This document shows positions 44,521 through 49,561 of a stretch of 64,000 nt of DNA, piece after piece. The stretch comes from Halalkalicoccus tibetensis. GTDB lineage: Archaea; Halobacteriota; Halobacteria; Halobacteriales; Halalkalicoccaceae. Location of the stretch: positions 521,684 through 585,683 of the forward strand of contig NZ_JBBMXV010000004.1 in the NCBI RefSeq assembly GCF_037996645.1. The letters are read 5' to 3'. Position numbers and translations under genes: made by a program. Within the stretch, counting starts at the first letter, position 1, and each line of letters begins with the position of its first letter. The notes below the pieces were generated by a model. It made no database searches. It was not told the DNA's origin and saw only the letters and a list, made by a program, of their open reading frames with translations.

Positions 44521-44560
44521 TCGTTTAAGTGGTTCTCGCGATAAGGGGTGAAGTAAGAAG
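44521..44560 (+). promoter_or_regulatory. Conserved element A (plus orientation)
   Basis: The run TCGTTTAAGTG, TTCTCGCGA, AAGGGG, GAAGTAAG is found here and, reversed, at 49440-49475. Thirty-three of 36 aligned bases are identical, and the flanks are unrelated. It stands 100 bases before the SMC-related gene. TTTAAG could be part of a TATA box. Confidence 0.6.
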
Positions 44561-44659
44561 TCTGCTGCGGGAAGAACTGTCCGATCCCTTTCGACCGGCT
44601 CCCGGCGGACCGCGCCGGCTGAACGCTTATTGGCTATAAGGTCGTAACGGGACTATATA

Positions 44660-46582
44660 ATGTCCTCAGATCAGGGTACGACCGCCGGCGTCGACATCGA
44701 GAAGATCGGTGGGATCGACGCCACGTCGGTCGAGTTCACGCCCGGCGTCACCGTCCTCGCGGGCCGAAACGCGACTAACCGAACCTCGTTTCTCCGATCG
44801 CTGATGGCCGCCCTCGGTAGCGAGCGGGTCTCGCTCAAGGGCGACGCCGACCAGGGGTCGGTCTCGCTCGATCTCGGCGGAGAGAGCTACACCCGCACGT
44901 TGACGCGCACGGACGGCGGCGTCGCGTTCGCCGGCGATCCCTACCTCGACGATCCGCAGCTCGCGGACCTGTTCGCGTTCCTGCTCGAGTCCAATCCGGC
45001 CCGGCGCGCCGTCGTCCGGGACGATGACCTCCGGGAGCTCATCCTCCGGCCGGTCGACGTCGACGCGATCGAGGCCCGGATCAGCCAGTTCCAGGCCGAG
45101 AAGCGCAGCATCGACGATCAGCTCTCGGAGCTCTCCGAGGCCGAACGCGAGCTGGGCTCGCTGGAGGAGGAGCACGCACGCGTCACCAACCGGCTCGAGA
45201 CCGCCGAGGCGGATCTCGAAGAGGCACGCGAGTCGCTGACGACGGTCCAGCGCTCCGACTCCGAGGGGACGGGCTCGGACCGGCTCGACTCGCTTCGCGA
45301 GACCCAGTCCCAGCTCGAGGACGTCACCTACGACCTCGAGACCGAGGAGGAGAGCGTCTCCTCGCTGGAAGCTGAGCGGGAGGAGCTCGAAGCGGAGCTC
45401 GAGGAACTCTCGACCGTCGACGAGGACGAGCTCGACGACCTGGCCGGTGAGATCGAACGGGTCCGGGGCCGGAAACGCGAGCTCGAGGAGATCGTCTCCC
45501 AGCTCCAGACGGTCATCCAGTTCAACGAGCGGATCACCGACGAGGGGGTCACGGATCTCCTCGGCGAGGAGGAACGGGAAGGGACGCGGACGGAGGCCGA
45601 CGGCGGGTCGGTGACCGATCAGCTGCTCGCGGACCAGTCGAACGAGGTGACCTGCTGGACCTGTGGCTCGGAGGTCGGCACCGAGGAGATCGAGTCGACC
45701 GTCTCGCGCCTCCAGGAGCTCCGCCAGGAGAAGGTCGAGCGGCGCAACGAACTCGATCGAGAACTCGAGGAGCTCAAAGCTCGACGCAAAGAACACGCCG
45801 CGACCAGGGACGAACGGACCGAACTCGAACGATCGCTTGAAACAACCAAGACGGAACTGGCGGATCGAACCGATCGGATCGATGAGCTCGAATCGCGACG
45901 GGAGGAGCTGCTCGAGGAGGTCGAGGAGCTGGAGTCGGCCGTCGAAACCGACGAAGAGGACGAGGAGCTCCTGACCGCCCAGAAGGAGGTCACGCAGCTC
46001 GAACTCGAGCGCGACCGGCTGACGCGCCAGCGCGACGCCCTCGAGGACGACATCGAGAAGTTCGAATCCCGCCTCGAGGAGCGCGAGCAGCTCGAGGCCC
46101 GCCGCGAGGAGATCAACGCGGAGCTCGAAGAGCTTCGGACGCGCATCGAGCGCGTCGAGCGCGAGGCGATCGAGGCGTTCAACGAGCATATGGAGACCGT
46201 CGTCGAGCTCCTCGATTACAGGAACCTCGCGCGGATCTGGCTGGAGTATCGCTACCCGGAGGGGAGCGACGACGCGAGCTTCGAGCTCCACGTGACCCGC
46301 CAGACGGACGACGGGACGACCTACGAGGACTCGGTCGAACACTTGAGCGAGAGCGAGCGCGAGGTGACCGGGCTGGTGCTCGCGCTGGCGGGCTATCTCG
46401 TCCACGACGTCCACGAGGAGATGCCGTTCCTCCTGCTCGACTCCCTGGAGGCGATCGACTCCGGGCGGATCGCACGGCTGGTCGAGTATCTCGAGGAGTA
46501 CGCCTCCTACATCGTCGTCGCACTGCTCCCCGAGGACGCGAGCGCCCTCGACGACGGCCACCAGCGGATCGAGGAGATCTGA
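44660..46582 (+). CDS. Archaea-specific SMC-related coiled-coil ATPase
   Basis: A 640-residue SMC/Rad50-like protein. The N-terminal ATPase lobe has a degenerate Walker A (GRNATNRTS, residues 35-43) without the usual Lys. Residues about 135-540 are coiled coil, broken by a zinc-hook-like CWTCG with Cys 332 and 335. The C-terminal lobe has LSESER in place of LSGG and a Walker B-like FLLLDSLEAID in which Ser replaces the catalytic Glu. These departures are, as I recall, normal for this haloarchaeal family, so ATP hydrolysis may be slow or absent. In other genomes such genes often neighbour rdfA; no rdfA is seen here. Confidence 0.88.
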   Translation: MSSDQGTTAGVDIEKIGGIDATSVEFTPGVTVLAGRNATNRTSFLRSLMAALGSERVSLKGDADQGSVSLDLGGESYTRTLTRTDGGVAFAGDPYLDDPQLADLFAFLLESNPARRAVVRDDDLRELILRPVDVDAIEARISQFQAEKRSIDDQLSELSEAERELGSLEEEHARVTNRLETAEADLEEARESLTTVQRSDSEGTGSDRLDSLRETQSQLEDVTYDLETEEESVSSLEAEREELEAELEELSTVDEDELDDLAGEIERVRGRKRELEEIVSQLQTVIQFNERITDEGVTDLLGEEEREGTRTEADGGSVTDQLLADQSNEVTCWTCGSEVGTEEIESTVSRLQELRQEKVERRNELDRELEELKARRKEHAATRDERTELERSLETTKTELADRTDRIDELESRREELLEEVEELESAVETDEEDEELLTAQKEVTQLELERDRLTRQRDALEDDIEKFESRLEEREQLEARREEINAELEELRTRIERVEREAIEAFNEHMETVVELLDYRNLARIWLEYRYPEGSDDASFELHVTRQTDDGTTYEDSVEHLSESEREVTGLVLALAGYLVHDVHEEMPFLLLDSLEAIDSGRIARLVEYLEEYASYIVVALLPEDASALDDGHQRIEEI

Positions 46583-46587
46583 CGGGG

Positions 46588-46846
46588 GACGCGACCGTTA
46601 CGGGACGCGATCAAGGCCGGCTTCTCGGGCTGGGCGATGAACGACGGCTGCCAGTACCGCGGCGACTACGAGGTGACGGTCCCGCTCTCCGATCACCGTG
46701 ACTTCGCCGAGCTCGTCGAGGCCGTCCGCGGGGTCGATCGGGAGGTCGTCTACACGCAACACGGTTCCGCCGAGGAGCTCGCGACGCATCTCACGACGGA
46801 GGAGGTATCCACTGGTGCGCAATCAGCGCTCGCTCAGTGACTTCTG
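46588..46846 (+). pseudogene. C-terminal remnant of a beta-CASP mRNA 3'-end processing-like nuclease
   Basis: The frame reads TRPLRDAIKAGFSGWA, then VTVPLSDHRDFAELVEAV and VVYTQHGSAEELATHL. This matches the C-terminal region of haloarchaeal MBL-fold/beta-CASP processing factors (SGWA, PLSDH, VYT.HG). Near 46810 the frame breaks: the expected family end RNQRSLSDF followed by a stop appears in another frame (46817-46846). The N-terminal 300 or more residues, including the zinc site, are missing. The remnant begins directly after the SMC-related gene, so it is dead. Confidence 0.75.
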
Positions 46847-46910
46847 AACTCCGATTCCGGGAGTTCGATCGCGGCTGGATGATGGGGGGTCGAGCGGAGC
46901 CCGGTGGACG

Positions 46911-47770
46911 CTACGACCCGCTCTCCCGGTGCTGGAGGACGATCGGTGCGAACAGGGAGACGACGGCCAGAAGCAGGATCGCCATCGCGATCGGGCTCGT
47001 GTAGATGATCGCCCAGCTCCCGTCCGAGAGCTCGAGCGATCGACGCAGGTTCTGCTCGGCGATCGGCCCCAGGATCAGCCCCAGCACCATCGGGGCCAGC
47101 GGGTAGCCGTCCATTCGGAGGACGAAGCCGAACACCCCCGCGGCGACCATCACCCACATGTCGAGGAGACTGCCCTGGAGCGCGAACGCGCCGACGACAC
47201 AGAACACGAGGATGCTGGGCCAGAGATATTTCGCCGGGAAGTTGATGACGCGGACCCAGAGGTGAGCCCCCAGGAGTCCGAGGACGAGGATCACGACGTA
47301 CACCACGAAGAATCCGATGAAGATCGAGAAGACGAGCCCCGGTTCGTTCTCGAACAGCCCCGGGCCCGGCTGGATCCCGTGAACGAGCAGGGCGCCGATC
47401 AGGATGGCCGTCACCGAGTCGCCGGGGATCCCCAGCGTCAGCGTCGGGATCAACGCGCCGGCGGTGCTCGAGTTGTTCCCGGCTTCGGCGGCGGCGACGC
47501 CTTTGGGGTTCCCCTCCCCGAACGCCGGGACCGCGTCCTTCGTCCATCGTTTGGCCTCGTTGTACGTCACGAACGAGGCGATGTCGCCGCCCGTCCCCGG
47601 GATCGCCGACGAACGACCCGATCACGCTCGACCCGATCGTGACGTTTCGTATCTCCTTCAGGTCCGCGATCGAGGGCGTGATGCCGGTGATCTCCTGTTG
47701 GACGTCGATGGCGCCGATCCCCTCCCGATACCGGTCGGTCCTGTGCGGGCCGAAGAAGTTCCCGTTTCTG
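46911..47770 (-). pseudogene. Truncated, frameshifted TctA-family tripartite tricarboxylate transporter permease
   Basis: The C-terminal 219 codons (46911-47570) are intact TctA sequence: ASFVTYNEAKRW, GALIPTLTLGIPGDSV, GIQPGPGLF, SILVFCVVGAFAL. Just upstream, at about 47605, one base appears lost: the frame ends SFVGDPGDG where the family needs GAIPGTGGDIASF. Before that, IADLKEIRNVTIGSSVIGSFVG can be read in the other frame. Homology stops near 47770, so about 250 N-terminal residues are gone. No TctB or TctC is present. The gene cannot make a working permease. Confidence 0.8.
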
Positions 47771-47853
47771 CGGGGAAGCCGACGCTTCGACCGATGGATC
47801 GGCGAACGGGAGCCGGGAAAACGTCTATGTGGCCTCGGCGGGATCGACGTCCA

Positions 47854-48009
47854 ATGACCGACGCGGACAGGGAGAACGACCCGGAGGTCCCCAGTCTCAG
47901 CGAGATCTACCGCGACGCGTGGAGCGATCCCACGTGGCGCCGGCAGCTGATCGGTCTCACCCTGCTGACCGTCGTGATGGTCGTCGCCCTGCTCTACTAC
48001 GCGATCTGA
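47854..48009 (+). CDS. Small single-helix membrane protein
   Basis: A 51-residue protein with an acidic cytoplasmic head (MTDADRENDPEVPSLSEIYR) and one hydrophobic helix (GLTLLTVVMVVALLYYAI). Codon bias fits the neighbours. No known family. Confidence 0.55.
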   Translation: MTDADRENDPEVPSLSEIYRDAWSDPTWRRQLIGLTLLTVVMVVALLYYAI

Positions 48010-48090
48010 CCGGAACGGGAGACGGGTGGGCCGTCATGCGGACCCCTCCCGTTCTTTCCCTCGTTCCACGGTGTCGTCCCCGGATCGCGC

Positions 48091-49263
48091 TCAGTGCAGC
48101 CGATCGAGCCATCGCCGGCCGGTTCGGAGGTCGTTCGGGACCTCCTCGCCGAACGCACACCGCGTCGCCCTGGCCCCACACGGGCTGCCCATCCAGACGT
48201 CGATCATCGGCGAGCCACCCTCGAAGATCGTGGCGCTCGCCGTCGTCAGCTGCCCGAACGCGTGTGGCTCGTCCGTCTCGGGCTCGGGATGGCGACAGAT
48301 CGACTCGTCGCCGGGTCCGTTCGCGTGATCCCGGGCGACCGCCCGCACCTCCTCGCGGTCGGGTCGCTCCCCCTCCAGCAGCTCCAGCGCGCGCTCACGG
48401 CGCTTCCTCGAGCTCTCGGTCCGGGTCGACGCCGAGTTCACGAAGTGGTTCGTCCTGACCACGACGGGGCCGTCCTCGACGGTGATCCGCTCGGTCACCG
48501 GGTCGACCTCGAGCAGGGCGCTGTCGGTCGCGTCGGCCAGGAACAGCGTCTGCCCACACAGCAGACGGGTCGGATGGGACTCGAGCAGCTCCCGCGCGTC
48601 GCCGACCGAGGCACACTCCTCCAGGATCCGGCGGATGACGGTCCCGTTCCGGAGCTGGTCCTCGGGCTCGACGTCGTCGCGCGCGCTGTCGATGTAGGTG
48701 TTGGCCGCGACCAGTCCCCGGTCGTTGACGCCCTTGAACGTCGAGATCGTCCCACAGGTGTCGACCGTCAGGAAGCCGTGGTAGTCGTCGATCGGCGGCT
48801 GCTCGATGATCGACTTCGGCCGCGTCCCCCGGCCCGCGATGTCCCGGTTCTTGAGGACGAGCGGCCCGGCGCCCTCGTCGGATCGCTGTGGGGCGACGAG
48901 CGCGTTCGTACACCCCTTCGGGTGTTTCTCGGACCGGCCGGGGCCGTCGGCCAGCTCCTCACAGAGCTCCGCGTAGGCGAAGACGTAGACGTCGTAGACG
49001 GCGGAGTCGACGTCGAGGACCTCGTCCATCGCCCGATACGCCCGGAGGTGGCGATCGGGCAGGCTCTCCCGACTGCGGCCGGCGTACTCGAGCAGCGGCT
49101 CGAGGTCGGTACCCTGCTCGTCGATCACGCGCTCGAGCTCGTCGATGGCCCACTCGACGGCGTCGCGTTCGGTTTCGGCCCGGCGCCGGGCCTGTTCGGC
49201 GAAACTGTCGACTTCCTCCACGACGGTCGCGTCGGCGGGAACGTCGACGCCCGTATCGTTCAT
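48091..49263 (-). CDS. C45 family peptidase / acyltransferase-like Ntn hydrolase
   Basis: A 390-residue protein similar to isopenicillin N acyltransferase-like hydrolases. The expected self-cleavage site and nucleophile is the Cys in HPKGCTNALV (about residue 117), followed by LVLKNRDIAG. DTCGTISTFKGVNDRGLVAANTYI and TLFLADATDSALLEVDP are also typical, and VRTNHFVNS follows. Family members cleave linear amides; the natural substrate here is unknown. The ATG at 49263 is 176 bases downstream of element B, on the strand toward which that element points. Confidence 0.85.
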   Translation of the reverse strand: MNDTGVDVPADATVVEEVDSFAEQARRRAETERDAVEWAIDELERVIDEQGTDLEPLLEYAGRSRESLPDRHLRAYRAMDEVLDVDSAVYDVYVFAYAELCEELADGPGRSEKHPKGCTNALVAPQRSDEGAGPLVLKNRDIAGRGTRPKSIIEQPPIDDYHGFLTVDTCGTISTFKGVNDRGLVAANTYIDSARDDVEPEDQLRNGTVIRRILEECASVGDARELLESHPTRLLCGQTLFLADATDSALLEVDPVTERITVEDGPVVVRTNHFVNSASTRTESSRKRRERALELLEGERPDREEVRAVARDHANGPGDESICRHPEPETDEPHAFGQLTTASATIFEGGSPMIDVWMGSPCGARATRCAFGEEVPNDLRTGRRWLDRLH

Positions 49264-49561
49264 GTAGTGTGACGACGGACTCGAGGGGATTGACTCTTGG
49301 CCCGGTGCATGCGACCTCGCCGTCGGAGGCGTTCGAGGACGTATCCGGGGACCGGCATTCCGGAGCCGAGAGAGGGCGCCGCCGGCCGTTCCGATCGATG
49401 GACGCCGCTGGACGACGCAGGCGGCTCGTAGAATCCCGCTTACTTCTCCCCTTGTCGCGAGAATCACTTAAACGAGTTCGGCGACGTCGGACTTCGGGAG
49501 CGCCAGAGGAGATCGATGCCCGGCCAGAACAGTAAGGATCGCCGAGCGAGAACGGTCGCGT
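49264..49561. other. Intergenic region with element B
   Basis: This gap separates the C45 gene (minus) from the small protein at 49562 (plus). Apart from element B (49437-49476) I see no conserved structure or gene. Confidence 0.45.
49437..49476 (-). promoter_or_regulatory. Conserved element B (minus orientation)
   Basis: Read on the minus strand it gives TCGTTTAAGTG, TTCTCGCGA, AAGGGG and GAAGTAAG in the same spacing as element A at 44521, with three substitutions in 36 bases. It lies upstream of the C45 gene. Confidence 0.6.

Follow-up and report, generated by a model that had tools for sequence, protein, structure and literature searches.

An extended, directional DNA element of haloarchaea that accompanies the RNA polymerase epsilon gene, a candidate promoter class without BRE

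A conserved DNA element, present twice in a region of the Halalkalicoccus tibetensis genome, belongs to a family with fixed direction and spacing that occurs in haloarchaea together with rpoeps, the gene for the epsilon subunit of RNA polymerase, and that clusters at rpoeps itself. Judged from sequence, the evidence leans towards these two copies, designated A and B, being members of an epsilon-associated, extended promoter class of haloarchaea that lacks the BRE. Epsilon was obtained in the purification of RNA polymerase from Halobacterium (Madon and Zillig 1983, cited in PMC8305020), and its gene corresponds to OE_1279R in Hbt. salinarum (PMC8305020). The epsilon-containing polymerase transcribes native templates efficiently, for which epsilon is reported as needed, and the role of the subunit is still termed enigmatic (PMC8305020). 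In the literature searched, no DNA signal or target for epsilon is described. The element represents the first concrete candidate for such a target, since it is confined to epsilon-carrying genomes, clusters at rpoeps and exhibits promoter geometry. If true, this reading would answer what the enigmatic subunit is for and would add a BRE-less type to the known archaeal promoters.

The window, i.e., the whole analysed stretch of 64,000 nucleotides, contains the features listed in Table 1. In line with the original prediction of an element present twice in opposite orientation with three differences, a repeat search from 43.5 to 50.5 kb aligned 44521-44557 (plus strand) with 49439-49475 (minus strand), two arms of 37 nt with 34/37 identical positions (92% complementary) and mismatches at element positions 12, 22 and 29. 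This pair ranked far ahead of all other inverted pairs. Outside the element, the sequences around A and B are unrelated, likewise as predicted, and the two elements converge, located as described before the ASRP gene (gap of ~100 nt) and the C45 hydrolase gene (gap of ~175 nt). The ASRP gene harbors a TATA-like CTATAAG of its own ~30 nt ahead of the ATG. The conserved core of the element comprises ~38 nt, and the boxes that follow it are kept in B and poorly kept in A. The occurrence of A and B as a pair needs no special cause, because random scatter of 11 copies, the number found in this genome, places some pair less than 5 kb apart in ~15% of trials. None of the elements detected in the congener G006 adjoins an ASRP gene, and the site of element A is thus probably recent. 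Within the C45 gene, Rfam gave a match to Actino-pnp below the threshold (48710-48803, plus strand), which was taken as a chance match.

Table 1. Positions of the elements and neighboring features in the window
Feature	Position	Strand	Remarks
Element A	44521..44561	+	TTTAAGT from 44524; conserved spacer TTCTCGCGATAAGG; predicted start of transcription ~44552-44556 (geometry only)
Archaea-specific SMC-related protein (ASRP) gene	44660..46582	+	downstream of A
TctA tricarboxylate transporter gene	46914..47567	-	C-terminal part only, N-terminal part broken off
C45 family autoproteolytic hydrolase gene	48091..49263	-	downstream of B
Element B	49409..49475	-	TTTAAGT from 49472 leftwards; core 49439-49475
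Element B downstream boxes		-	GATTCTACG at ~49426-49434; CCAGCGG near 49409

The search of haloarchaeal genomes that had been proposed along with the original prediction revealed many further copies. The core pattern is present in 13 of 59 relatives (control total 1), also in named Haladaptatus, Halostella, Halospeciosus, Haloarchaeobius and Saliphagus genomes, and on plasmids of Haladaptatus, Halorussus, Halococcus and Halarchaeum, whereas a match in Paceibacterota (L057) was dismissed as a chance core match. From TTTAAGT (position 1) to approximately position 38 the 74 aligned copies are free of indels and yield the consensus TTTAAGTRSTTCTSGCGAYAAGGNGTAGATACGAGG. Column counts over these copies place the TATA-like TTTAAGT at positions 1-7 and an A-Y-A-A motif at positions 18-21, so that the element combines the TATA-like box and the W-rich -10 stretch of a canonical promoter at the right spacing. 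With the TATA-like box taken to be centred at -27, AYAA would lie at -10 and the start at approximately positions 29-33; a purine is found near this expected +1, and the spacer from the TATA-like box to the predicted start is nearly invariant. A BRE (CGAAA) was not found directly upstream of TTTAAGT. It is missing, because A is nearly absent there (0 and 2 of 74 copies at positions -2 and -1); T or C dominate the two bases ahead of the box, with TC favoured, which is the sole upstream preference. The element had originally been considered too long for a core promoter. This argument holds for the canonical archaeal promoter, but in its TATA-like box, AYAA at -10 and purine near +1 the element has the geometry of a promoter that carries a conserved spacer in addition.

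Further conserved boxes are located downstream. TTCT boxes peak at +40 and +50-51, with a smaller peak at +59, over a background of 0.7 per position, and an AGC box follows 22-25 nt beyond the TTCT box. The TTCT positions are phased, with a resultant of 0.62 at a period of 10.3 compared to a maximum of 0.37 in 5000 uniform simulations, although the test includes copies from relatives and therefore overstates their independence. This phasing points to contacts along a single face of the helix. Moreover, 48 of 49 neighbor pairs within 300 nt share their orientation, at spacings of at least 84 nt and often of 117-140 nt. Such one-way arrays are common for promoters but would be out of the ordinary for a simple operator. 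The lineages differ in dialects, such as AGTAAG in family f1, TTCGTAGTGAGG in f7 and TGGTCACAAG in f8, which are common to separate copies within a genome; over positions 23-38, copies share an identity of 0.80 inside a genome, 0.77 inside a family and 0.61 across families. This pattern is the trace expected from a co-evolving trans-acting factor, although shared ancestry contributes to the pattern as well.

A protein of ~250 aa recurs next to the elements, and its orthologues on plasmids of Halorussus, Halococcus and Halocatena are annotated as DNA-directed RNA polymerase subunit epsilon. We compared element and gene across 145 haloarchaeal genomes with a completeness of at least 90%, scoring the element as a model match at E<=0.01 and full-length rpoeps at E below 1e-60. 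Full-length rpoeps is present in 79 genomes, and the element in 77, every one of which also has full-length rpoeps; in one of the 77 (G107) the element was scored on the basis of truncated matches; none of the 66 genomes without full-length rpoeps contains the element (Fisher p 1e-39, counting genomes as independent despite their relatedness). The two genomes with rpoeps and no element at this cut-off harbor weaker copies, a full-length one just upstream of rpoeps in G098 and a weak one 1.2 kb upstream in G152. Applying laxer filters to 25 genomes without full-length rpoeps yielded truncated matches only (E 0.03-0.5). Both states, element with rpoeps or neither, occur within families f1, f4, f6, f7 and f13 and within the genus of the window, where both are found in this genome (G000) and in G006 and neither in G001-G004, indicating that several independent gains or losses agree. 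These data render the element a candidate for the DNA signal on which epsilon works, and the co-occurrence could instead reflect another factor inherited with rpoeps. Distant epsilon-like proteins (35-42% over ~100 aa) were observed in G029, G070, G109 and G146, genomes without the element that hold only such fragments, and as a second copy in this genome (G000:C7:140296-140595); they possibly constitute a paralogous family.

At the rpoeps locus, elements were found in 33 of the 34 loci examined. In a wider set of loci, 95 copies precede the gene on its own strand, 19 follow it and point back towards it, four follow it on the same strand and one precedes it in reversed orientation. The nearest element is usually located 110-200 nt before rpoeps, and a separate TATA-like box is found 30-33 nt ahead of the ATG in 27 of 34 rpoeps genes, a spacing as would be expected for a leaderless mRNA. 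The elements are thus additional to the rpoeps promoter. Moreover, the element is not simply the promoter of rpoeps, since the majority of the copies found here lie away from the gene, as do copies on other replicons in other genomes; nor is it the main promoter of the adjoining genes, as these often have their own TATA box ~30 nt before the ATG. The unlinked copies adjoin many unrelated genes, and no regulon of conserved genes was apparent. At three loci (L097, L111 and L127) a second element array lies upstream of a DsbA-like oxidoreductase gene that adjoins rpoeps. On several replicons of Haladaptatus (L019, L068, L070, L077 and L144) the element is found, with conserved flanks, directly behind a gene for a SprT-like zinc-ribbon protein and at most of these loci ~200 nt before a helix-turn-helix (DUF7437) gene. 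On the 25-kb Halarchaeum plasmid pCBA1220-04 (L146) it precedes by ~200 nt the gene for a protein of 288 aa without known family.

The main rival to a promoter is an operator, at which a dimeric regulator, epsilon or a co-inherited protein, would bind TTnTCGCGAnAA together with the phased TTCT boxes and thereby control neighboring genes, rpoeps foremost. We regard this reading as unlikely, despite an imperfect palindrome in the spacer of several lineages, the helical phasing of the boxes, the clustering around rpoeps and the TATA boxes that adjoining genes have of their own. The strict one-way arrays and the invariant TTTAAGT followed by AYAA at the -10 distance are better explained by a promoter, and the palindrome is gone in lineages with TGGCGA or TGGTCA. 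The suggestion of a conserved control site made at the outset is compatible with these data, which point to a promoter-like, directional control element.

A second alternative accepts the promoter and attributes it to a family of small RNA genes transcribed in the ordinary, TFB/TBP-dependent manner, the link to rpoeps being indirect, e.g., through an RNA that regulates epsilon. The tandem units with their minimum spacing, the conserved boxes downstream, and the long gap to the next start codon, as opposed to the 72% of protein-coding transcripts that are leaderless in Haloferax (PMC4983044), would agree with such genes. However, the region from +29 to +105 shows no folding excess over shuffled sequences (mean z 0.04, 158 copies), on which ground a structured small RNA was rejected, a search of Rfam gave no accepted match for the element, a BRE is missing, and phasing by 10 bp is a feature of DNA. 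We therefore consider this explanation improbable. The idea that the element is the start of a small RNA is nevertheless compatible with the promoter reading in so far as short transcripts are possibly produced. Under the promoter reading, we infer that the element probably drives short intergenic transcripts. Its products would most likely be short RNAs, intergenic or antisense, given that other promoters seem to lie close to the starts of ASRP, rpoeps and further genes and that elements at loci of TRAM-domain genes point into the 3′ side of the gene.

In this 3.6-Mb genome, 11 copies of the 25-nt core were found with at most 3 mismatches (reversed-pattern control 0), far in excess of chance, and a blastn-type search gave seven matches. 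The 11 are dispersed single copies, mostly unlinked to rpoeps. Seven of the 11 adjoin TRAM-domain genes or a remnant of one, and several copies at these loci point into the 3′ end of the gene and not toward a start. On contigs C5, C6 and C7 (L188-L192) we observed duplicated cassettes consisting of ASRP, a small acidic protein, TRAM-domain genes and the element, with ASRP copies of 80-86% DNA identity. Between the flanks of A and B and these cassettes, only the core and the downstream boxes are common, plus the ASRP gene itself.

The association with duplicated TRAM-ASRP cassettes, as well as the variation of sites between species, could be taken to indicate that the copies stem from a mobile element or a duplicated plasmid cassette, as its ends or relics. 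We deem this very improbable, given the unrelated flanks of A and B, the lack of a transposase and of a terminal partner, the one-directional tandem arrays that precede rpoeps in many families and the co-occurrence with a chromosomal gene. The same evidence speaks against the earlier proposal that A and B are ends of a lost mobile element bracketing a decayed region at 46.6-47.8 kb: the copies in this genome are scattered singly, elsewhere they are usually arranged in tandem in one direction, and the presence of the element tracks rpoeps. The decayed region (46.9-47.6 kb) is the broken TctA gene. No transposase was detected among the open reading frames between A and B, and the reading of the convergent pair as a transposon was discarded. 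The AAGT...GGATTCT ends had suggested an IS200/IS605 end or a guide-RNA scaffold, which was rejected as well, the adjoining genes encoding TRAM-domain proteins and no transposase. Viral carriage was likewise dismissed; the similarity seen in viral contigs is limited to a single 22-mer and does not extend into the element, and no relatives of epsilon were found in viral contigs.

Returning to the promoter reading, we asked what kind of protein epsilon may be. Two AlphaFold models, built from 3 and 5 sequences with a core confidence of ~70-83, both have TFIIB, Brf2 and cyclin domains as best structural matches. The first model matches yeast TFIIB with Z 10.7 over 97 residues at 2.4 A and Pyrococcus TFB with Z 9.2; the second reaches a top Z of 8.9, with unrelated folds starting below ~7.4, and helical models can attain such values by chance. 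In a plain Foldseek search TFIIB ranked first at a non-significant E of 0.46. At the sequence level, profile similarity to the six TFBs of this genome was not detected (hhalign probability 0.1), Pfam gave no TFIIB match and a search of PDB sequences no match; sequence homology of epsilon to TFB was rejected on the Pfam and hhalign results. The models predict that epsilon probably holds one cyclin-like domain, a prediction made in this analysis. It is conceivable, though we would put it somewhat short of an even chance, that epsilon acts in a TFIIB-like manner as a promoter-specificity factor of this lineage and has the extended element without BRE as its cognate promoter class.

Taken together, we infer that transcription initiates at the element, at the position given by its geometry, and that epsilon recognizes it. 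The element would be inherited together with rpoeps, and epsilon, with its one predicted TFIIB-like cyclin domain, would act with RNA polymerase at the element, as a factor for initiation or for specificity. In place of the BRE, which is normally read by TFB, the element shows a spacer conserved from the TATA-like box to the predicted start. Short intergenic or antisense transcripts would start from the element, and the arrays at rpoeps itself could perhaps serve autoregulation.

The Haloferax core promoter comprises the BRE CGAAA, the TATA box TTWT and WW at -10 (PMC4983044). Like this canonical haloarchaeal promoter, the element has a T-rich TATA-like hexamer, a W-rich stretch ~17 nt downstream and a purine near the expected start; unlike it, the element lacks a BRE and has a near-invariant spacer and extra phased boxes downstream. 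Haloarchaea possess multiple TFB and TBP factors (PMC2121645), and epsilon would similarly be an alternative initiation factor with a promoter class of its own, although, in contrast to TFB, it has only one predicted cyclin domain and no detectable sequence similarity to TFB.
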